DNA from: a virus | Reading direction: 5' to 3' (one strand) | IMG/VR virus record: IMGVR_UViG_3300021341_000069 | Coordinates: 1 to 20,421 of that record | DNA length: 20,421 bases | Part shown: one piece after another, positions 4,114-19,101 of the stretch | Position numbering within the stretch: position 1 is the stretch's first letter | Layout: every line of letters begins with the position of its first letter | The notes under the pieces: model-generated | What the model was told of the DNA's origin: nothing | What the model saw: only the letters and a program-made list of their open reading frames with translations | The model's database searches: none | Program-made: the position numbers and the translations under genes

Positions 4114-5175
4114 CTACACCGGGGGAAGCAGGGTGCCGGCGGGATGAAGGGTCAGTGCGGCCCGCGTGCCCTGCTGGCGGTCACGGATGAGGCGGCGACC
4201 GGACACCCACCAAAGCCCGGTGACGCCGGCCACTTCGTCGACCACCGTCACGGTCTGATTCGGGGCCCACAGGACCTTGCGTGCCGGCCCGTGGCCAGGC
4301 ACCACGCAGGAGTACTCCTGCCCGCGGTAGGCCCGCGTGGAGACCTCCCAGCGGGCGCGGTCCGTGGCTTCGGTGACGCTGCCCACCTGGCCATCATCGA
4401 GCACCAAGGGGCGGTGCACACCCAGTGCCACCAGGGCGGGGTCGACGGCCGCGCCGACCAGTTGCCCGGCGCCGAGCTCGCCGAAGAGAGACCCGCCACC
4501 AGCCGACTGCCCGAGCACCGTCACCTGACTGAATCGCTGTGCGATGTCGCGGGTGTAGCTGACCTCGAGGACGTTGGTCTGGTTGGCGGTGGCCGGGGTG
4601 GCACCATGGAACAGCGCCGCCACCGGCGGCGTGATGTAGTCAGGCCGCCCCAGCGAGAGCACCCCAGCAGGGGTCATCGTAGGCATCAAACGGAGCCGGC
4701 GACAGTACCGGGTGAGCATCTGCCAGTAAGTCTCGCCAGGCTCGGCCTTGATGATCGACATGGGCACCAGCGCCTCTGGCGAAGGCTTCACGATGGCCGG
4801 AACGCCGAGCTCGGCGAGCGCCTTGGTGGCGGCCACAGCCAGAGACGTCGTCGGCAACGACCAGGTGGGCCCCGGGCAACAGTCCACCAGCGGGCCAGCA
4901 AGGTCCCGGCCCGAGAGGGCGAGCGTGAGCCCACCGGCTCGGCTGCGCCGGACCTCCACCCGCTCCAGCCATCCGCGCAGCGCAGGGACCGAGTCCACCA
5001 GCATCACAACGGGGAGACCAGGCGTGAGGGCCGCCACATGGGCCGCGGTGGGGTTGGCCACCTCGACGCTCCAGGAGTCCGCAGGCGCTTCGTAGTCGGC
5101 CTCCAGTTCGTAGCGGGTCCAGTTGGACCAGGAGAATGCCCCCACGATGAGCGTGGCCTCTGGGCTACCGGGCAC
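4114..5175 (-). CDS. Baseplate hub protein (Mu P/gp44)
   Basis: 353 residues, GTG at 5175, overlapping the LysM-like gene by 11 bases. Features of Mu P-type hub proteins (T4 gp27-like) are visible: LIVGAFSWSNWTRYELEADYEAPADSWSVEVANPT near the N terminus, VVMLVDSVPALRGWLERVEVRRSRAGGLTLALSGRDLAGPLVDCC at about 56-100, then KALAELGVPAIVKPS and YWQMLTRYCRRLRLMPTMTPAGVLSLGRPDY. The C-terminal third is beta-rich (VLEVSYTRDIAQRFSQVTVLGQ, RRLIRDRQQGTRAALTLHP). Length fits Mu gp44 (379). It would form the ring at the base of the tube, holding the spike. The Shine-Dalgarno site is weak, and coupling from the upstream gene is likely. Confidence 0.9.
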   Translation of the reverse strand: MPGSPEATLIVGAFSWSNWTRYELEADYEAPADSWSVEVANPTAAHVAALTPGLPVVMLVDSVPALRGWLERVEVRRSRAGGLTLALSGRDLAGPLVDCCPGPTWSLPTTSLAVAATKALAELGVPAIVKPSPEALVPMSIIKAEPGETYWQMLTRYCRRLRLMPTMTPAGVLSLGRPDYITPPVAALFHGATPATANQTNVLEVSYTRDIAQRFSQVTVLGQSAGGGSLFGELGAGQLVGAAVDPALVALGVHRPLVLDDGQVGSVTEATDRARWEVSTRAYRGQEYSCVVPGHGPARKVLWAPNQTVTVVDEVAGVTGLWWVSGRRLIRDRQQGTRAALTLHPAGTLLPPV

Positions 5176-5587
5176 GGGCCACCACCGTGGTGCCAGGCGC
5201 GATGAAGCCCGGATGCCGGATGCCGGGATTGAGCGGCGCGAGCTCGGTCCAGCGCGAGCCGTCGCCGTAGAGGCTCACCGCGAGCTCGACGAAGGATGTC
5301 TCACGGTCGGCCACCACTTCGACGGTCGCGGTGGTGTCCGCGATGGCGCGGTGCAGGTCCACCAATCGGGCAGCGAGGGCCCGGAGCGCGCTCACAGCCG
5401 GCCACGCCTGGACACCCCAGAGGGTGTCGAGCTCGCCGATGAGAGCAGCGATGTCGCGCCGGATGTCGTTGGCCTCCCGTTCGTACTCCTGGGAGCTGCT
5501 GAAGCCGCCTGCAGCGGCCTTGTCGATGGTCGCCCCTGCGGTGCTCAACACCTCCCGCAGCATGGCGAGGGCCTCGGTGCGGGTCAT
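5165..5587 (-). CDS. Probable detached C-terminal part of Mu gpN, with LysM-like tail segment
   Basis: 140 residues, ATG at 5587 one base after the gpN-domain stop (TGA G ATG). The N-terminal 60 residues are helical (TEALAMLREVLSTAGATIDKAAAGG, EYEREANDIRRDIAALIGEL) and fit the helical middle of gpN. The C-terminal part SFVELAVSLYGDGSRWTELAPLNPGIRHPGFIAPGTTVVARAR has the LysM-like pattern Y-G-D..W-x-x-L..L-N..I-x-x-P-x-x-I..G-x-x-V seen at the end of phage tail proteins of the gpN and gpX types. The frame is not continuous with gpN; joining the two would need a +1 or -2 shift. The Shine-Dalgarno site is weak, so translation probably depends on the close stop of gpN. It may instead be a separate baseplate-hub LysM protein. 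Confidence 0.75.
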   Translation of the reverse strand: MTRTEALAMLREVLSTAGATIDKAAAGGFSSSQEYEREANDIRRDIAALIGELDTLWGVQAWPAVSALRALAARLVDLHRAIADTTATVEVVADRETSFVELAVSLYGDGSRWTELAPLNPGIRHPGFIAPGTTVVARAR

Positions 5588-5588
5588 C

Positions 5589-6062
5589 TCAAGCCCCCAG
5601 CGCGGCGGCAGCGGCGGCGGCAGCAGCAGCAGCAGCGGCAGCAGCAGCAGCGGCAGCAGGAACCGACGAGGTCACCGCGAAGGCGAAGGTGGTGACCTGC
5701 GCCTCGGTGAAGGTGAAGCGCACCACGGCGTGGTTGTGGGTCTGGTCGGAGTGGACGATCTGCAGGTTGCTGACCACTCCCCACAGCTCACCCCAGAAGG
5801 GATGCACAAAGAGACCCGGGCCGAGTGCGAGAGGCGCGGCGACGACGGCCTTGAGGCCGTTGACCTGAACCCACCAGGTGGCGCCGAAGTACTCGGCCTC
5901 CACCTGCAGGCGAAGGGGGCCGGCCCCGACGTCTTCGAGCTCGACGGAGTCCCGGCCTGGGTAGGCGTGCTCCACCCAGACGCGCCCGACAGAGTCCGTG
6001 ATGCGAACGACCGGGATGGGGACGCCTTGGTAGCTGCAGGGAAGTGGGGCCGGCGTGCGCAT
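5589..6062 (-). CDS. DNA-circulation protein N-terminal domain (Mu N/gp43) ending in poly-alanine
   Basis: 157 residues, ATG at 6062 sharing one base with the tape measure stop. The protein is the N-terminal DNA_circ_N domain of Mu gpN: GVPIPVVRITDSVGRVWVEHAYPGRDSVELEDVG, then LRLQVEAEYFG and GLFVHPFWGELWGVVS, with the family's L-V-H-P-x-x-G pattern and a final FTEAQVTTFAFA. In Mu, N is about 490 residues and goes on with a long C-terminal part. Here the gene stops after a 19-alanine run (5657-5601, encoded mostly by GCT and GCC) and LGA. The second half appears to be carried by the next gene. In Mu-like phages gpN is a tail/baseplate component needed for DNA circularisation and tail assembly. 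Confidence 0.85.
   Translation of the reverse strand: MRTPAPLPCSYQGVPIPVVRITDSVGRVWVEHAYPGRDSVELEDVGAGPLRLQVEAEYFGATWWVQVNGLKAVVAAPLALGPGLFVHPFWGELWGVVSNLQIVHSDQTHNHAVVRFTFTEAQVTTFAFAVTSSVPAAAAAAAAAAAAAAAAAAALGA
5601..5657 (-). repeat. GCN triplet repeat encoding 19 alanines
   Basis: Nineteen consecutive alanine codons at the end of the gpN-like gene, mostly GCT and GCC, with one GCG. Triplet gain or loss would change only the alanine count, not the frame. Confidence 0.95.
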
Positions 6063-7843
6063 CAGGTGGCCCCGTCGCGGGACCAGGCGCGCTGGACATC
6101 ACCAGCTCGCACCTCGGTCGTGGTGACCCCGTCCTTGTCAACGTGGACGTTGATGTCGAGGCGCTCGAAGAGCCGATTCAGGGACTCATCCCGGGCATTC
6201 CGCCGGTCGTCGCGACTCGACCCGCCGAGGCTTGCCGCCCCACCGCTCAAGGGATCGATGAGGGTCCACTGCGCCATCCAAGCCTGAATGGCATCCTCTG
6301 CCCACGACCCCTTGATGAGCCCCTCATTGATGGCCGTGCCGACACCAGCGCCCGCCAGCCCAGCAGCACCAAGGGCACCAGCCCGCCCAACTGCGCCGAG
6401 GGCCGCCCCACCCTTGGCGCCACCAGGGAGCCCACCCGCAAAGCCGAGCTCGGCCGGCCAGTTGGTCACGAAGACCGGTGTGGTGCCAGCCGCGGCCTCT
6501 GCCGCCTTGCCTGCAGCGACTCCGCCGGCCGTGCCCAGCAGCGCACGGAGCAGGCCGGCCCCACCAGCGCCCTGCAGGCCCTTCGAGAGGCTGAGGCCAC
6601 CGCGGAGGAGCTGCGCCAGGCCGAACGCGCCAGCGGCGCCCACAGCCCCCATGGCGCCGTATGAGACACCCTGCGCGATGCGTGGGTCTGCCTCGACTGT
6701 TGCAGCCAGGCGGCCCAACGCATCGTTGGCCATCTGGGCGCCCTCGGTGAGCGGCTCAAGGGCTGGCTCAAAGAGCGCGGCCATGAGGGTCCGTTGTGTG
6801 CCACCGAGGGCGTCGGCCGACGCCCCGAAGGTGCCTGCACGAGTCGAGACCCGGTCCTCGAGGGAACGGGCCGTGGCCATTTTCTGCATCGTGTCTTCGA
6901 GGCTGCCCGCCCCGGTCTGCAGCATGGCCAGCGCGAAGCGGGCGCCCTCGTCGCCAAATGCCTTGGACAGGGCAACCTGCTGTTGCTGCTGGGTCCGGCC
7001 TTCCATCTGCCCGCGGAGCGCCTCAGCGGCCCGCTGCAGGCCGACGAACTCACCGCCCTCATACAGCCCCATGCCGTACTTCTGGTCACTCTTGGCGGCC
7101 ATCCGGAGGAAGGCGTTGAGCGCCGTCCCCGCCGACCCACCCTTGATTCCCATGTTGCCCATCACACCGAGCGAGGCGAGCGTCTCGTCACGCTCCAGGC
7201 CGAGCGCGCCGGCTGTCGGCGACTGCGCCAACGCCTCAGCGAGCTGGCGCGGGTTGACGGCCGCGGCACCACTCGCGCGCACGAGCTCGTCGGCGGCCGA
7301 TGCAAATTGGTCGCCAGCCAGGCCGAAGATGGACCCCATGGTGAGGACTGCTTGGGTCGCTCCGGAGGCGCCAAGGTCGCCCTCTGCGGTCGCGAGCTGG
7401 GCGACGGCCTCAGCGGCGCCGCCCTTGCCAAGAATCGCCGAGCCACCCAGCCCGGCTTTCGACAGGTCGGTCTGAATGCCCACCACGTCTTCTTGAGAGA
7501 AGGCCGTCGGAGACGCCACCCGCGCCGCATCGCTGCGGGCGTCGGCAAGCTGGCGCTTGAGGTCTTCGACCGAGTCCGCGTTGAGCGTGACCTCAAGCCC
7601 CGTGAGCGCCGACTGCAGCGATGCGGCGGCCTCGACACCAGGGTCCACCAGCTCGGTCTTGAGCTGGCGAGCCACCGAGAGGCTCCGCATGCCCGACCGG
7701 AACTGGTCCACCGCGCGGGACATGTGCTGAAACGCCTGCTCGCCCTCTTCACCGAGCCCACGCAGCGACGAAGCGGCACGACGCGCCACAGCGGATGCGC
7801 CGTCGATGAGGAGCAGCTCCATCACCATGCGGGAAACGGCCAC
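6062..7843 (-). CDS. Tape measure protein
   Basis: 593 residues from a GTG at 7843 preceded by a strong GAGGAGGAG; the GTG shares one base with the chaperone-extension stop (TAGTG). Tape measure proteins set tail length and fill the tube before DNA passes. Seen here: N-terminal helices (VARRAASSLRGLGEEGEQAFQHM), a central region typical of TP901/PhageMin tail proteins (LQSALTGLEVTLNADSVEDLKRQLAD, QEDVVGIQTDLSKAGL, ALGLERDETLASLGVMGNMGIKGGSAGTALNAFLRMAA), and from about residue 390 a run of Gly/Ala-rich hydrophobic segments (GAMGAVGAAGAFGLAQLL, ALGAAGLAGAGVG) that probably insert in the host membrane. A five-glutamine run lies near residue 285. At about 1.5 angstroms per residue the length suggests a tail near 90 nm, which is only a rule of thumb. 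Confidence 0.93.
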   Translation of the reverse strand: MAVSRMVMELLLIDGASAVARRAASSLRGLGEEGEQAFQHMSRAVDQFRSGMRSLSVARQLKTELVDPGVEAAASLQSALTGLEVTLNADSVEDLKRQLADARSDAARVASPTAFSQEDVVGIQTDLSKAGLGGSAILGKGGAAEAVAQLATAEGDLGASGATQAVLTMGSIFGLAGDQFASAADELVRASGAAAVNPRQLAEALAQSPTAGALGLERDETLASLGVMGNMGIKGGSAGTALNAFLRMAAKSDQKYGMGLYEGGEFVGLQRAAEALRGQMEGRTQQQQQVALSKAFGDEGARFALAMLQTGAGSLEDTMQKMATARSLEDRVSTRAGTFGASADALGGTQRTLMAALFEPALEPLTEGAQMANDALGRLAATVEADPRIAQGVSYGAMGAVGAAGAFGLAQLLRGGLSLSKGLQGAGGAGLLRALLGTAGGVAAGKAAEAAAGTTPVFVTNWPAELGFAGGLPGGAKGGAALGAVGRAGALGAAGLAGAGVGTAINEGLIKGSWAEDAIQAWMAQWTLIDPLSGGAASLGGSSRDDRRNARDESLNRLFERLDINVHVDKDGVTTTEVRAGDVQRAWSRDGAT

Positions 7844-8434
7844 TACTCCTCCTCATGCCCGGCGGGAACAACGCCGAGTTCAGCCCAAACCGCTTTGACG
7901 TCGTCGGGCACCTGGTCGTCATCGTCAGGTCGGCCGCCCTCGACCTCGAACCCACCCGAACCGATGCCGTTGTGGGCCCGCACCAAGGCGTCGGCGTAGC
8001 CAGCCACCTCGTGCATCCGCAGCGCGCCCACGCGCTCAGGCGACCAGTTCAGCGCCCTCGCCATCATCGCCACAGTCATCCGATGCGCCTGCACCGACCG
8101 CCTGCGCTCGAAAGGACTCGGCGCGCGAGGCCACCTCCTTCGAAGCATCGAAGAGGTGCCCAGCGTCGGCCTGGTACACGTCTGCCACTTCGGTGACGGT
8201 GAGGCAGCGGTCCAGCGTGGGCACCCAGACCTGACGGGCGAGCTCGGCGAGCTTCTCCCATGCCTTCTCCGTGAAGCCGGCGGGCCGCGGGTTGGCCGCA
8301 GCATCCACCATCGAGGACATCACCTCGTTGAAGGTCAACGGCCTGACCTCGACCTCGAAGTGCCGAGCACCGTCGATGACGACACCGACCTCAAGCGCCA
8401 CGGTCACGGTGAGCAGCTCCGGAAGGGCCGTCAT
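7843..8434 (-). CDS. Predicted frameshift fusion product of the tail assembly chaperone gene (gp41/gp41')
   Basis: A second open frame ends in TAG at 7845-7843 and is open from beyond 8300, overlapping the zero-frame gene by more than 200 bases. Going from the first frame to the second needs a +1 or -2 shift, which is the direction Mu uses for its tail chaperone. A -2 slip at CGC_GCC (8125-8120) gives a protein of 197 residues; a +1 slip at TTT (8113-8111) gives 196. The extension after the shift reads PSPFERRRSVQAHRM (or ERRRSVQAHRM) and then TVAMMARALNWSPERVG, MHEVAGYADALVRAHNG and a C-terminal DDDDQVPDDVKAVWAELGVVPAG. The helix-rich middle and the ADALVRAHN segment look like real protein and occupy what would otherwise be a coding gap before the tape measure. 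An independent start at the ATG at 8079 is the alternative, but it has no good Shine-Dalgarno site. Confidence 0.7.
8036..8434 (-). CDS. Tail assembly chaperone, zero-frame product (Mu gp41)
   Basis: 132 residues, ATG at 8434 (a GTG one codon earlier is unlikely because the ATG shares one base with the tube stop). The start ALPELLTVTVALEVGVVIDGARHFEVEVRPLTFNEVMSSM resembles Mu gp41-type tail assembly proteins: a beta segment followed by an E-V-R-P-L-T motif and then helices (AWEKLAELARQVWVPTLDRCLTVTEVADVY). It sits between tube and tape measure, where tail chaperones that coat the tape measure protein are encoded. The C-terminal 25 residues (acidic, GDDGEGAELVA) lie in the region where a second frame is open, and a programmed shift is expected to make a longer form. 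Confidence 0.85.
   Translation of the reverse strand: MTALPELLTVTVALEVGVVIDGARHFEVEVRPLTFNEVMSSMVDAAANPRPAGFTEKAWEKLAELARQVWVPTLDRCLTVTEVADVYQADAGHLFDASKEVASRAESFRAQAVGAGASDDCGDDGEGAELVA
8108..8140 (-). promoter_or_regulatory. Candidate programmed frameshift region: internal Shine-Dalgarno plus slippery codons
   Basis: Minus strand AAGGAGGT at 8140-8133 is a perfect ribosome-binding sequence inside the chaperone gene with no start codon at usable spacing. Seven bases after it, the zero frame reads CGC_GCC (8125-8120); slipping back two bases re-pairs these codons to CGC and GCG. Eight bases further, TCC_TTT_CGA (8116-8108) offers a +1 slip of Phe-tRNA from TTT to TTC. The TTT is conspicuous because the other Phe codons checked in this gene are TTC. 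Confidence 0.55.
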
Positions 8435-8820
8435 CACTTCGTCCCCACGCGCAGGAGACCTTGGAACTCGATGGTGCGCATGGCCTGGGACTCTTCTTCG
8501 TAGGTGTCGCCCACCTTGGTGACGAAGACGCCGACAATGGTGTAGTTCGGCGCGACGCCGACCTGGTTGACGGTGATGACGCCGGACGGGAGTAGGCCGC
8601 CGATCTGAATCCAGGGGACGTCCCCCGTCTTCGGGATGTAGACCTGCAGCCGGCCCGACACCTTGATGGGAGCATCGGTATGGCCGATGGGCGTGCCCAG
8701 CGGGTTCATGCCGATGACGAGCTTGCGGGCGGCCTCCTCATCGACAGAGACGCGCTTGGCGTGGACGACGGGGAGGCCATTGACGGCCAGAATGACGCGG
8801 GAGACAAAGACGCCGCTCAT
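8434..8820 (-). CDS. Tail tube protein (Mu M/gp40 position)
   Basis: 128 residues, ATG at 8820 with GAGGAG upstream. It is predicted to be almost entirely beta strands, as tube proteins are: SGVFVSRVILAVNGLPV, a KVSGRLQVYIPKTGDVPWIQ segment, ITVNQVGVAPNYTIVGVFVTKVGDTY and FQGLLRVG. The gene lies immediately after the sheath, and next to the tail assembly chaperone, which is the fixed place of the tube gene in Mu and other myophages; the length fits Mu M (118). The stop shares one base with the chaperone start (TGATG). The name rests on order plus beta character, because I do not see a diagnostic motif. Confidence 0.85.
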   Translation of the reverse strand: MSGVFVSRVILAVNGLPVVHAKRVSVDEEAARKLVIGMNPLGTPIGHTDAPIKVSGRLQVYIPKTGDVPWIQIGGLLPSGVITVNQVGVAPNYTIVGVFVTKVGDTYEEESQAMRTIEFQGLLRVGTK

Positions 8821-8831
8821 GGGGAGGCTCC

Positions 8832-10271
8832 TCAGCCGAAGATGAGATTCAGCTCAGCGCCGAACACATGGGCCCCGTCGACGATGTCGGCGGGAATGGA
8901 GGCGTTGAGGCGGGTCGGCACGCTAGGGTCCCGCTCCACCACCAACAGGTCGGCGTGGTCCTCGACCCGTTCGAGGTAGCCGATGGACTCGTAGCCGTAG
9001 AGCACACCCAGGATGACGCCCCGGACCTTGGTGGGGTCGGTCGTGTTGGCAGACACCGCCACGTCGGCGAGCTTGGTCTGTCCCAACTCCTGCTGCAGCT
9101 TCACCCGCACGCCGTAGCGGACGGCGTCCAGCACGCGGATGGTCTGCAGGTCGAGCAGCGTGTCATCTGCGGAGCCGAAGGCATCCTCGACGTAGCTGGT
9201 GACGCTGCGGACGATGGCGACCGTGTTGCCCGGGGCCTCTTCGAGGGGCGCAACGCCGTTGTAGAGGCACGACTCCTGCTCGGTGCGGGTGAGCAGGTCG
9301 GAGCGGGTGCGGGGCACCGCCACGGGCTTCAGCACGACGTTGTTGAGAGGGCGGGCCCGGTCCGGCTCGGCCGCGATGGCAGCAGCGAAGGCCGCGCCAA
9401 TTTCCATGGGGTGCGTCAGCGTGCCCCGCATGTAGGGGAAGGCCATCCGGCCGCTGTTGCGGGCGCTGGCGAGCGTTGTGGCGGCCGACAGGGTGCCCGT
9501 GAGGCCCGTCACCGAGACGCCGGGCCGCTGCTCGATGGGGCCGGCGACCGTGTCCAGGTGGGTCTTGATGGCCGTCAGCGAGGTGGCGTCCTTGAACTCG
9601 GCGCAGATGAGGTCGAACTGCGTGGACTCGACCGCATCGAGCGCATCTTGCACGTCGGGGTCGGTGGCGCCGCTGCTCGGCTGGACCGTGGTGAGCGTCA
9701 GGCCGGAGCCAGTGAAGTCGTCGGCCCACACCCAATCGTTGCCGGCAGTGCCCTTGCACTTGGCGGTCAGCGTGACGACCGCGAGCAGCGAGGTCGCCGA
9801 GAAGGGGAGCGCCGCGTCGGCCGTGATGGCCGCGGCGATGTTCGTGGCAATGTCGGATTCGGAGTCGGTGGACGCGATGCCCACCCGCACCAGGTGGCGC
9901 CCGACATAGAGGTAGAGGGTGCCCGCAGTGAGGCTGGAGATCGCGACAGTGATGGTGCCTGCGGCTGCGACCGCGCCGACCGCCTCATCCTGCGGAACGC
10001 ACCACAGCTCGGAGAGGGCGGGGTTCTGCTCCAGTGCCGCCGCAGCCATCAGGGCCAGCGGGGTGCCGGAGCCGAAGTACTCGCGGGCCTGGCCGGGACT
10101 GAAGACCTGCACGGGCACGTCCGCAACGGCCGTTCCGCCGGAGCGGGTACCGATGAGCAGGAGCTTGTCGATGGTCACCGGGAGGCCGGTCTTAGCACCC
10201 GCGGTGTTGATGTTGATGTAGGTGCCCGGCTTGCGAATGGTGGGCGCGACACCAGTGACGGAGATGGTCAT
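8832..10271 (-). CDS. Contractile tail sheath protein (Mu L/gp39)
   Basis: 479 residues, ATG at 10271. It forms the outer contractile tube that drives DNA injection. Evidence: an N-terminal ISVTGVAPTIRKPGTYININTAGA segment like other Mu-type sheaths; KLLLIGTRSGGTA and VFSPGQAREYFGSGTPLALMAAAALEQNP at 37-85; a central beta-rich inserted domain (TAGTLYLYVGRHLVRVGIAST); FPYMRGTLTHPMEIGAAFAAAIA and RPLNNVVLKPV at about 280-315; and a C-terminal domain with LQTIRVLDAVRYGVRVKLQQELGQTKLAD and VVERDPSVPTRLNASIPADIVDGAHVFGAELNLIF, which is the conserved intertwining end. The length is close to Mu L (495). A short 11-base gap leads into the tube gene. This gene fixes the phage as a myovirus. Confidence 0.95.
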   Translation of the reverse strand: MTISVTGVAPTIRKPGTYININTAGAKTGLPVTIDKLLLIGTRSGGTAVADVPVQVFSPGQAREYFGSGTPLALMAAAALEQNPALSELWCVPQDEAVGAVAAAGTITVAISSLTAGTLYLYVGRHLVRVGIASTDSESDIATNIAAAITADAALPFSATSLLAVVTLTAKCKGTAGNDWVWADDFTGSGLTLTTVQPSSGATDPDVQDALDAVESTQFDLICAEFKDATSLTAIKTHLDTVAGPIEQRPGVSVTGLTGTLSAATTLASARNSGRMAFPYMRGTLTHPMEIGAAFAAAIAAEPDRARPLNNVVLKPVAVPRTRSDLLTRTEQESCLYNGVAPLEEAPGNTVAIVRSVTSYVEDAFGSADDTLLDLQTIRVLDAVRYGVRVKLQQELGQTKLADVAVSANTTDPTKVRGVILGVLYGYESIGYLERVEDHADLLVVERDPSVPTRLNASIPADIVDGAHVFGAELNLIFG

Positions 10272-15109: not shown

Positions 15110-17455
15110 TCAGGCGGCCACGCCGAGGGCGTCGCGCCACTCGAAGGGGAAGCCGCTGAAGTCGAATTCATGGGGTTCCATGCCGGGGTTCCGTCGCCAT
15201 CCGTGGTCCGGCACGGCGGGCTCCGACACCACCCGACCGTCGGCGAGGGTCTGCCGGATGCGGGGCAGCGCGTCGGAGATGGTGAGGCCCATCTGAGCGA
15301 CCTCCGCCGCCGTCAGGGCACGCACTCGGCACCGGCAGTTGTGGCCGTTGAGCGGGTACCAGGTCTGCCAAATTGGATGCCCCACCGGGTAGACCTTCCG
15401 GTCCATCGCCGCATGCGTCGGGCGAGCGTTGAACATCGCGTCATAGAGCAGGTAGGGACGGCGCTTTGCCTGCCTGGGGCTCGACTGCTGCGCCCACCGG
15501 CCGCCGTGGTAGGCGCTGTTGGTGTTGTTGCGGAACACCAACTGCACCCGGTGAGGGGCGCGGCCCTCCATCCCGTGGGCCGACAACGTGCTGTCGAAGC
15601 GGTCCTCGAAGTCCGCGATGGTCATGCCTTCTTCGATGACAGCGCGCTGAAGGTCGGCGATGGCCTCGACGGCCTGCAGCGAGGTGAAGCCAGCGATGGA
15701 GAAGGCGCGGGCGGTGTGCTCCTCGCCGAGGGCCCGGAAGGCGGCCGACGTCATCGGCACCTTCTGCCGCCACCACTTCTCCGCCTTGAGCGGGTTCACT
15801 TTGGGCCACTCGCCCAGCGCCACGTCCCCGAGCTCCACCTGTGCGCGGCCGACGAGCTCGCCGGTCAAGGTCGCCGCAGCGACCTCCGAAGCCAGGTGGT
15901 CAAGATCGAGCTGACGCAGGGCGGCGACCAGTCGGGCCGAGATGTCGCCCAGCGACGAAGCCTGCTGCACATGGCGCCGGAGGTGCTCCAGCACGTCTTC
16001 CCAGGCTCCGTAGCCGCCGTGGTTCAGCGCCCTGCGCACCACTGCCACCACGTCGGCCCCAAGGGCGTCAGTGGGGTCGGCGAGCGCCAGTCCGCACTCT
16101 GGCCCGTGGATGTGGTCTGAGGCGGCCACCTGGTCGTCGCCCTTGGCGTCGGTGTCGGTGTCTGGCTCTTGGGGCGTGCCGTAGGTCTCGGCGCCCGCGT
16201 CGGGCTCCGGCACCCCGAAGGTCTCGTGGACGTGGCCCTTGTCGAAGCGCACCCCGATTTTCGCCAAGTCCACGTACAGCTTGGCGCGGGCGGCGAGGTC
16301 CTCTGCGGGCTCGGCCACCAGGCGGAACTTTGGATACCGCCGCTGCGGCCCGAACTGGAATTGCACCAACGGCCGCACGAGCTGCGCCGTGATGGTCTCC
16401 GACACCTGCTCGGCGTCACTCTCGAGAAGGTCTTGCCGCACGTCGGCATGCACCGAGCCGAGCGCCTGTGTGCCGTGCTGGCCCTCCGACGTGGTGAGCG
16501 TCTGACCGAGCACGGCCACGGCGTACTCAGCGGCGCCCCACTCCACCAGGCTGCGGTAGACGTCGACGCTCGCGCCCTTGTTCTGGGCAGCCGGAAACTC
16601 GATGCTGCAGCCCTCGGGAATGATGGCCGCCGCGTCGACCCCAAGGTGCTGCAGCGCCTGGTAGAGCACCCTGCGGTCAGTCTCCGAGGTGCCCGGCCGG
16701 TAGCGACCCACGCGCAGCGGAGCGCCGTAGGTCTCCGCGAAGATGAGCCAGTCTTTGAGCGTGTAGGACCGGAACAGGAACACCCAGGCGAGCGCTCGAC
16801 CGAGGGCACCGCCGGCCGCCGTGGACCCCGAAAGGGCGGTCATCTCGTGCCACACCCAGGCGTTGGGCTCCAGGGCTTCTGCGTTGCCCGAGTCGTTGAC
16901 GATGCCCCAGACGTCGGGGCGCTCGGCCGTTGGTCGGAACCAGTGCGCAGGCCGGTGGAGGAGGCCGTTGATGGTGGTCAGCCCGCCGCCCTGTCGCCAG
17001 TCGATTTCGAGGCCCGAATAGCCCTTGCTCACGGCGTCCATCATGTGGATCAGCGAGGTCCGAAACGCGGGAATCTCCGCGAAGACGTCCTCGACGTACT
17101 GCGAGATGCGGGCATCGGTGCGCCGCTCGGAAGGCGGCACGATGCGGTACGGAAGGCCCGCGAGCGCCCGCTTTCGGGTGCCCAGAACACTCATCAGGCG
17201 GGTGTCCCGGCCTTCGATGTCGCGGAGCAGCTCCGCTTGCGCTTGGGGGTCGCCGTCTTCGGCCTGGCGCAGGTAGGCCGCGAGCCGTTGCGGGGTCAGC
17301 CCGACCGTGCGGGCAGTGCTGCCCACCGACCGCATGCCCGACCAGCTCGGGTGGTGGCTGGCCTCCACGGGCTGCCTGGTGGTCCGGGTGTCCGCCAGTG
17401 CCAGCGACACCGGCGAACCGGCCATGAGGCCCCACATGTCCTTGAGCCAGCTCAT
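15110..17455 (-). CDS. Portal protein (DUF935, Mu gp29) fused to Mu F-type head morphogenesis domain (gp30)
   Basis: 781 residues. The frame is open further upstream, but the ATG at 17455 (MSWLKDMWG) has a GAGGAG eight bases before it and shares one base with the terminase stop, so I take it as the start. Residues about 40-410 read as a DUF935 portal: AYLRQAEDGDPQAQAELLRDIEGRD, SKGYSGLEIDW, KDWLIFAETYGAPLRVGRY and a SVHADVRQDLLESDA segment. An acidic linker of about 420-455 follows (TPQEPDTDTDAKGDD). The C-terminal part matches the Mu gpF/SPP1 gp7-type minor head domain: NTNSAYHGGRW at about 640, then HAAMDRKVYPVGHPIW and LNGHNCRCRVRAL at about 700-711. In Mu these are two genes. There is no stop or frame change between them here. 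The portal is the DNA entry ring; F is a minor head protein needed for assembly. Confidence 0.92.
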   Translation of the reverse strand: MSWLKDMWGLMAGSPVSLALADTRTTRQPVEASHHPSWSGMRSVGSTARTVGLTPQRLAAYLRQAEDGDPQAQAELLRDIEGRDTRLMSVLGTRKRALAGLPYRIVPPSERRTDARISQYVEDVFAEIPAFRTSLIHMMDAVSKGYSGLEIDWRQGGGLTTINGLLHRPAHWFRPTAERPDVWGIVNDSGNAEALEPNAWVWHEMTALSGSTAAGGALGRALAWVFLFRSYTLKDWLIFAETYGAPLRVGRYRPGTSETDRRVLYQALQHLGVDAAAIIPEGCSIEFPAAQNKGASVDVYRSLVEWGAAEYAVAVLGQTLTTSEGQHGTQALGSVHADVRQDLLESDAEQVSETITAQLVRPLVQFQFGPQRRYPKFRLVAEPAEDLAARAKLYVDLAKIGVRFDKGHVHETFGVPEPDAGAETYGTPQEPDTDTDAKGDDQVAASDHIHGPECGLALADPTDALGADVVAVVRRALNHGGYGAWEDVLEHLRRHVQQASSLGDISARLVAALRQLDLDHLASEVAAATLTGELVGRAQVELGDVALGEWPKVNPLKAEKWWRQKVPMTSAAFRALGEEHTARAFSIAGFTSLQAVEAIADLQRAVIEEGMTIADFEDRFDSTLSAHGMEGRAPHRVQLVFRNNTNSAYHGGRWAQQSSPRQAKRRPYLLYDAMFNARPTHAAMDRKVYPVGHPIWQTWYPLNGHNCRCRVRALTAAEVAQMGLTISDALPRIRQTLADGRVVSEPAVPDHGWRRNPGMEPHEFDFSGFPFEWRDALGVAA

Positions 17456-19101
17456 CACCACGCTCCTCGACCGAAGCCGGCCGCTCGTCTCTTGATGCGC
17501 TGCAGAAGGCCCACCCCGCCGCCGCGACGCGATGCCCGCCGCATCCGGCGCCACCCCATCTCCAGGGCATCGAGGCCGTCGCGCTTGCCGTCTGGGTAGT
17601 CCTCAGCCTGCACCTGCAGGTTGCGGCAGCTCCGGTCGTCGGGAATGCGCACCCGGCCCTGATTCCAGGCCGGCGCCATCCCGCGCAGCCGCAGGTCTTT
17701 GTTCTCGGTCTGGGACTCGATGGTCTCCCAGCCGGTCAGCATGCCCCGGGTGCCCGCGTCGTCGACCAGCATCACTTCCATCAGGAGCTGAAAGCCGATG
17801 GCCTCGATGACGAGGTGGTCGGGGTCCTCGAAGGCCACGATGTCGTTGATGTAGCGGATGAGCTCGCGGGGGTCGCCGATGCGCAGCAGCTCACAGCGGT
17901 GGACCAGCACCCAACCGTCGGCCGTGGGGCCGCGAAGGATGACAAGCGCCTGATAGTCAGACTTGTCGGTCTTCCCGAGCGCAGGGTCGAAGATGAGCAT
18001 CGATGGAAGGTCGACGCCTTCGAAGTCCGCCCGCGCGTAGTGGTGCGTGGTGTGGAAGGGCTTCCCGGTCGACGGCGGGACGTCCATCATCTCCATCAGG
18101 AAGGCTTCAGGGTCGTCGGCCTCCTCGTCGCGGAGCTGCTCCAGGGTCCACCGCTCGGGCCACAGCACGGTCACACCATCGGGGAGGATGGCGGCGTAGC
18201 GCATCTTGTGCCACCGCTCGAACTGCCCATCCCGAGTGAAGCGGCACACCTGGCAGTCGGGGTGCAGCGGCGTGCCCACCATGAACACCCGGCCGACACC
18301 GGGCTCCAGACCGTAGTTCACGGCCGCCGTGATGTTCCGGGTCATCCGGTCGCGCACAGCCACGGTGCCCACGGTGCGCTTGCTGTCGGGGTCGTCGAAA
18401 ATGGCGAGGCGGGGGCGCCACTGGCGGTGCTTGCCCCCTCGAATCGAGCCGTCCATCCCGAAGGCGCGCACCCGCACGTTGGTGGCGCTCACAAAGTCGC
18501 GGTCAGACTGGCGCCCCTCCAGCAGCACCCGCCCGCCGTCGTCGGAGTCGAGGCCCCAGTCATACAAGAGGAGCGCGTTGTCTTGGAGCTCCTGCTTGAT
18601 GGCCGCGGTGAACTCGATGGCGGTGTCGAGGGTGACCGCGATGATCTGGATGTAGGGGTCCCAGAACAACTTGGGAGCGGCATCCCCCGCCTCGGCGAGC
18701 ACCTCGACGATGGCGGCGTAGAGGTCCGGGTCTTCGTCTTCGAGGCGCCCTTCTTCCCAGGCCCGCAGCACCGGCGCACACACCACCTGGTGCAGCGGGT
18801 AGGCGAAGGTGATGGTGGTGCTCTTGGCGTGGCCACGGGGGGCCCGAGCGACGATTCGCGCCTTCTGCTCAAGCGCCCGGTACATGTCGCTGTGCATCGG
18901 CGAGGGGGCGCAGCGGAAGTAGTGGGGCAGGTAGCTCAGGTTGAACCGCTCGGGCCAGACGACAGCCTCAGCCTTTCGCCTGAGCTGGCGGGCGTTGTCG
19001 TCGCCATCGAACTTGGCGCCGCGCACCTCGGCGGTACGGGCGGCGGTCTCGATTCGGTCCCAGAAGCGCTTCTGGGTGAGCGCCTTCACCGGGGCCGCCA
19101 C
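17455..19101 (-). CDS. Terminase large subunit (Mu gp28-like)
   Basis: 548 residues, GTG start at 19101 with GGAGG four bases upstream. This is the ATP-driven DNA packaging motor with a C-terminal nuclease that cuts host-flanked DNA for headful filling. Visible motifs, in order: Walker A-like APRGHAKST at about 87-95; Walker B LAIFDDPD at 232-238; coupling motif VGTPLH at about 275-280; RNase H-fold nuclease residues in LIFDPALG (Asp372), LVIEAIG (Glu433) and a later Asp in RDGLDAL (508-511). A CX2C pair lies at HPDCQVC just after the coupling motif. The C terminus is basic (RRMRRASRR, RIKRRAAGFGRG). Length is normal for Mu-like large terminases. The stop shares one base with the portal start (TGATG). 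The call is firm. Confidence 0.95.
   Translation of the reverse strand: MAAPVKALTQKRFWDRIETAARTAEVRGAKFDGDDNARQLRRKAEAVVWPERFNLSYLPHYFRCAPSPMHSDMYRALEQKARIVARAPRGHAKSTTITFAYPLHQVVCAPVLRAWEEGRLEDEDPDLYAAIVEVLAEAGDAAPKLFWDPYIQIIAVTLDTAIEFTAAIKQELQDNALLLYDWGLDSDDGGRVLLEGRQSDRDFVSATNVRVRAFGMDGSIRGGKHRQWRPRLAIFDDPDSKRTVGTVAVRDRMTRNITAAVNYGLEPGVGRVFMVGTPLHPDCQVCRFTRDGQFERWHKMRYAAILPDGVTVLWPERWTLEQLRDEEADDPEAFLMEMMDVPPSTGKPFHTTHHYARADFEGVDLPSMLIFDPALGKTDKSDYQALVILRGPTADGWVLVHRCELLRIGDPRELIRYINDIVAFEDPDHLVIEAIGFQLLMEVMLVDDAGTRGMLTGWETIESQTENKDLRLRGMAPAWNQGRVRIPDDRSCRNLQVQAEDYPDGKRDGLDALEMGWRRMRRASRRGGGVGLLQRIKRRAAGFGRGAW

Follow-up and report, generated by a model that had tools for sequence, protein, structure and literature searches.

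Introduction

Frameshifted tail chaperones, +1 shifts in phage tail genes, slippage on UUU_Ynn in bacteria and the UUU_CGN class of shift sites are all already known, each separately (PMC5009743, PMC3498833). Among chaperones, -2 shifting is established for gp41 of phage Mu (Xu, Hendrix and Duda 2004, as cited in PMC5009743 and PMC3498833), and among sites, UCC_UUU_CGU of influenza virus has been proven by mass spectrometry to direct a +1 shift (Firth et al. 2012, PMC3498833). The proposal of a UUU_C class drew mainly on eukaryotic viruses (PMC3498833), and UUU_Ynn is reported to be +1-prone in bacteria (PMC5009743). Other +1 shifts have been described in genes of tailed phages, namely Listeria PSA, A118 and A500, SPP1, and HSTV-2 (PMC5009743, PMC3498833). 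The PRFect paper states that a general slippery motif has yet to be identified for forward shifts (PMC10885494).

Here we analyse the tail assembly chaperone gene of a 20.4-kb viral record; the whole of this stretch is referred to as the window. An earlier note on this DNA had proposed that the gene contains a programmed frameshift, with two candidate sites, CGC_GCC and TCC_TTT_CGA. Our comparison of related loci supports the frameshift and makes it very likely that a programmed +1 shift at TTT_CGA yields a short and a long product from this one gene.

Results

Tail module and reading frames

The window carries a Mu-like head and tail module on its minus strand, to which all features described below belong. 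The tail sheath gene (8832-10271) matches PF04984 (E = 3.7e-18) and phrog_165 (E = 6.6e-127), and the tail tube gene (8434-8820) was assigned from a weak match to phrog_185 (E = 0.0018) and from its position between sheath and chaperone. The chaperone gene (8036-8434) lies between the tube gene and the tape measure gene (6062-7843; PF10145, E = 1.3e-21; phrog_28, E = 2e-31), in the position of lambda gpG and Mu gp41. Its zero frame runs from ATG 8434 to TGA 8036 and encodes a protein of 132 aa that is homologous to known chaperones (phrog_508, E = 2.5e-8). Other members of the module are the major head protein gpT (PF10124) and a DNA circularisation protein (PF07157).

Two further features of the window are recorded here as side observations. 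The DNA-circularisation/baseplate-hub protein encoded at 5589-6062 aligns to phrog_184, a profile of 411 positions, over positions 10-155 only, and its C terminus is a long alanine run encoded by GC-rich repeats; the neighbouring gene at 5165-5587 appears to encode a distinct protein with a LysM-like end, and the two are possibly a split gene with an alanine linker. An 814-aa open reading frame at 15110-17554 resembles a Mu gp29-like portal fused to a Mu gp30/gpF-like minor head protein.

A second frame within the chaperone region is open from 8318 to TAG 7843, where it overlaps the GTG start of the tape measure gene by one base (TAGTG). Its phase relative to the zero frame is +1, which is equivalent to -2. 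In all of this the description given in the earlier note holds, and the three motifs that it singled out, an SD-like AAGGAGGT (8133-8140), CGC_GCC (8120-8125) and TCC_TTT_CGA (8108-8116), are in place and all lie in the zero frame.

The second frame bears a coding signal of its own. GC by codon position is 0.70/0.44/0.87 in the zero frame before TTT 8113 and 0.78/0.46/0.82 in the second frame after it, and the zero frame loses this pattern beyond the TTT (0.88/0.60/0.56). In many relatives the chaperone is followed by a domain to which the second-frame product is homologous (HMM E = 2e-9, 30.7 bits).

Collection of related loci

Direct searches with the chaperone or the tube protein of the window returned no relatives, and we therefore used the tail sheath as an anchor. 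At each sheath-anchored locus the tube, the chaperone, the tape measure and the second-frame domain were located, the last by HMM. Once near-copies had been removed, the +1/-2 phase was represented by 53 loci, the window among them, and the -1 phase by 32. Two further scans, scored with the second-domain HMM frozen, supplied a held-out set of 12 +1-phase and 25 -1-phase loci.

We read by eye the 23 loci left unclassified by the automatic pipeline. Three of them (L028, L047 and L062) are additional +1 cases with TTT_CGA or TTT_CGC that the automatic gene calls had missed; of the others, most have another chaperone family or are laid out for a -1 shift, and in a few no chaperone could be called. 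No counter-example, that is, a locus with the layout of the window and TTC at the site, was seen among the 23. The window itself is one of the most diverged members: its sheath is at most 45% identical to that of any relative and forms a very long branch on the sheath tree (1.27 changes per column).

In seven sheath relatives (L005, L015, L016, L030, L046, L063 and L064) the chaperone is of an unrelated type (LLEKLKAG...) and appears to shift by -1 at A-rich runs, which suggests that chaperone modules have been exchanged between phages with similar sheaths.

Conservation of the slip site

At the frame switch, all 53 +1-phase loci have an in-frame TTT_Y, and 52 of them have TTT_C. The site reads TTTCGA in 36 loci, TTTCGC in 10, TTTCAA in 4, and TTTCGT, TTTCCC or TTTTGC in one each. 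A Mu-like prophage of Desulfobulbus elongatus DSM 2908 (L092) is among the carriers of TTT_CGA. TTT_CGN is found in 12/12 held-out +1-phase loci, and together with the three loci read by eye TTT_Y is present in 68 of 68. Elsewhere, in-frame TTT_C accounts for 0.1% of codons. The three T are invariant, and the flanks average 43-45% pairwise identity. Re-pairing at +1 is possible at the TTT in every one of the 53 loci and at any other codon column in no more than 8. When the limits of the open frames of all loci are combined, the shift must fall between two codons before and five codons after the TTT.

The window conforms to this pattern. TTT 8113 is the sole TTT among the five Phe codons of the chaperone gene, in line with what the earlier note had seen in the Phe codons that it checked; the main genes of the window contain 16 TTT versus 136 TTC, and CGA provides 27 of their 392 Arg codons (7%).

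It might be argued that TTT_CG is kept by the overlapping proteins, which would need Phe-Arg in one frame, and not by slippage. The pair is indeed common, with an Arg codon after the TTT in 47 of the 53 loci. However, TTC encodes the same zero-frame Phe but does not allow a +1 slip with re-pairing, and it outnumbers TTT in the rest of these loci (320 TTT, 526 TTC), yet the site has TTT in all 53 cases and TTC in none (Fisher 6e-22; the loci are related, so that p overstates independence). CGA likewise makes up 36 of the 47 Arg codons at the site versus 81 of 1937 (4%) elsewhere (Fisher 2e-37, with the same overstatement through kinship). In addition, the A-site residue varies among loci (R, Q, P, C), which shows that the codon is constrained and not the peptide, and E, A, K and P are all found among the +1-frame residues that follow the shift. 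We regard protein constraint as very improbable, and as the least probable of the readings considered here. The TTT site is present across deep branches of the sheath tree, and the argument for it as the putative slip site rests as much on this spread and on the held-out test as on the Fisher p-values.

A separate translation start is the second reading to be weighed. Without any frameshift, the second frame could be a small gene of its own, translated from an internal start (ATG 8079 or GTG 8073) or by translational coupling. ATG 8079 does lie in the second frame of the window, and phage D108 and others have a short, separate ORF in their annotation. Nevertheless, ATG 8079 has no SD upstream, and in 16 of the 53 relatives the second frame lacks ATG, GTG and TTG alike between its opening and 45 nt past the TTT; in 25 of the 53 it lacks ATG there. 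A separate gene would also leave unexplained both the invariant TTT_C and its replacement by A_AAA_AAG in the -1 phase. A separate start is thus very improbable. The pattern that the earlier note had named as evidence against a frameshift, a conserved second-frame start with no conserved slip codons, was not seen in these loci, which lack a conserved start codon and keep the TTT_Y throughout.

The remaining question is which of the two candidate sites is used. A programmed, Mu-like -2 shift at CGC_GCC, aided by AAGGAGGT seven bases upstream, would give the right phase; CGC in the P site re-pairs with CGC at -2, the SD-like motif is nearby, and Mu itself shifts by -2 (PMC5009743). Against this, CGC_GCC occurs in 1 of the 53 loci, the window itself, and TTT_Y in all. 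A shift four codons upstream of the TTT is impossible in two of the relatives, whose second frame is open for just 2-3 codons ahead of the shift point. Mu-type phages, moreover, have CGG_GGG_CGA and not CGC_GCC, and no slip codon that re-pairs at -2 is conserved in the relatives of the window. We consider a shift at CGC_GCC highly unlikely and reject it as the site. The preferred candidate is a +1 shift at TCC_TTT_CGA, the one of the two sites that all relatives of this phase have conserved. Since tRNA-Phe on TTT_C re-pairs only at +1 and TTT offers no -2 pairing, the window is predicted to use +1 slippage and not the -2 shift of Mu, and the -2 interpretation in the earlier note is not supported, nor is its parallel with Mu.

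Conserved downstream RNA structure was not seen (mean z -0.19; control 0.09), and no natural in-frame fusion of both chaperone frames, of the kind that would indicate a need for the long form, was found among the fetched loci.

An SD-like element upstream of the site

SD-like 5-mers are found 17-24 nt upstream of the TTT in 21 of the 53 loci (4.3 expected from synonymous codon resampling) and 3-9 nt upstream in 11 (1.9 expected), although kinship between loci may inflate this enrichment. In the same 53 loci they are not enriched at 10-16 or 25-35 nt upstream of the TTT, and they are not enriched in -1-phase loci. Among the 15 extra loci, five have the far element and three the near one. The short spacing fits the known effect of the SD in prfB. 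AAGGAGGT of the window lies in the far band, 19 nt from the TTT. The importance given to this motif in the earlier note is therefore probably justified, in that relatives again have an SD-like element some 20 nt ahead of the TTT, but its role as a helper of CGC_GCC is not; AAGGAGGT is probably a conserved accessory of the shift at the TTT.

Other shift directions in the same gene

In the -1-phase sister loci, A_AAA_AAR is found at the switch in 29 of 32, and the exceptions include G_GGA_AAG runs. Six -1-phase loci (L170, L181, L185, L194, L199 and L109) have a GGA_AAG run (CGG_GGA_AAG or GAG_GGA_AAG), that is, a G_GGA_AAG heptamer and not A_AAA_AAG. A_AAA_AAR is present in 20 of the 25 held-out -1-phase loci; one has a TTT_C, a coincidental one beside its A_AAA_AAR. 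The window, with its +1 phase, has no A_AAA_AAR in the overlap of its frames and does not belong to the X_XXY_YYZ type. The two annotated phages of the sheath clade that we checked, Klebsiella ST405-OXA48phi1.1 and SuMu, are both of the -1 type.

The Mu-type phages D108, B23 and MuM16-2 (L128, L132 and L133) share CGG_GGG_CGA in the overlap of their chaperone frames, and its GGG re-pairs at -2. This motif also places CGA in the A site, as in the window. In B23 and MuM16-2 the second-frame gene is absent from the annotation.

When the labels +1, -1 and -2 are placed on the sheath tree, nine changes are required, a count obtained on a quick tree with long branches, for genes (sheath and chaperone) that may have recombined. 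Judging from the sites and phases, one chaperone gene is decoded by +1, -1 or -2 shifts in different lineages.

Proposed mechanism

Most ribosomes would read the chaperone gene to TGA 8036 and make the short, 132-aa G-like protein. A minority would pause at the slip site (8108-8113) with TCC (8116-8114) in the E site and UUU (8113-8111) in the P site, while the A site holds the zero-frame CGA (8110-8108), a slowly decoded codon; AAGGAGGT may add to the pause. tRNA-Phe (anticodon GAA) would then move one base forward, from UUU to UUC, so that C 8110 is skipped and reading resumes in the +1 frame at GAG 8109, continuing to TAG 7843. We infer the slippage itself, its P-site model and its efficiency, and with them a minority 196-aa GT-like fusion with the junction ...AESF|ERRRSVQ..., the last 88 aa of which (7843-8109) would be the second-frame domain.

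The gene has three features of the G/GT type: it lies between the major tail protein and the tape measure, its zero-frame product is a chaperone homologue, and a conserved second frame is reached via a conserved slip site. By analogy with lambda, the two products would load the tail tube protein onto the tape measure.

Discussion

The reading frames, the homology of both domains and the near-absolute conservation of TTT_C(G) are apparent in the aligned loci, which contain no conserved alternative site or start codon. What appears to be new is the clade-wide use of a UUU_CGN +1 site in bacterial phages; in the open literature consulted, we found no report of a UUU_CGN +1 site in tail chaperones or of its conservation over a phage clade. 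We go further with some reserve, and slightly favour the view that, in a large clade of environmental Mu-like phages, the UUU_CGN +1 site together with an SD-like element, placed upstream at a fixed spacing of about 6 or about 20 nt, constitutes a distinct bacterial +1 recoding signal, and that the same chaperone gene has switched direction (+1, -1, -2) several times with both domains kept.

The 68 natural variants of one +1 site, along with sister genes that shift by -1 or -2 at the same point, form a natural test series for which codons and upstream elements set the direction and efficiency of shifting on the bacterial ribosome. The analysis also provides an annotation rule: the chaperone pair, which often appears in annotations as two ORFs or a single truncated one, should be joined.

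Comparison with known systems

Mu gp41 resembles the window chaperone in gene position, in the phase of the two frames, in the A-site CGA (CGG_GGG_CGA in D108) and in the presumed pair of products. It differs in its slip codon, GGG versus TTT, and in the direction of the shift, -2 versus +1, so that the product differs by one residue. The lambda G/GT pair and the FluMu-type -1 chaperones (A_AAA_AAG, G_GGA_AAG, T_TTT_TTG) share the gene and the logic of its products, and in 32 of the sister loci the second domain is homologous; unlike the window, they shift by -1 at a heptamer and have the second domain in the other phase.

Among +1 systems, the tail and capsid genes of Listeria PSA, A118 and A500, of SPP1 and of HSTV-2 have the direction of the shift in common with the window. 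The Listeria sites, however, use CCC codons, those in tail genes beside a stop, and none of these other shifts is reported (PMC5009743, PMC3498833) as a clade-wide UUU_CGN chaperone site. The UUU_Y +1 shift of Yersinia YopN-TyeA (PMC5009743) is likewise a bacterial UUU_Ynn slip without a stop codon, but in an unrelated gene and a single system. The closest parallel in the site itself is influenza A PA-X, which has the same UCC_UUU_CGN context, the same P-site change from UUU to UUC and a slow A-site Arg codon, and for which no downstream stimulator has been found either. It differs from the window in that the latter is a phage chaperone read by the bacterial ribosome, with upstream SD-like elements and with CGA or CGC in place of the CGU of PA-X. 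The chaperone site has two marks of the UUU_C(GN) +1 class, a P-site UUU followed by C, on which tRNA-Phe can re-pair with UUC (TTT_C in 52 of 53 loci, TTT_Y in all 53), and an A-site Arg codon that is rare or slow (CGA in 36 of 53).
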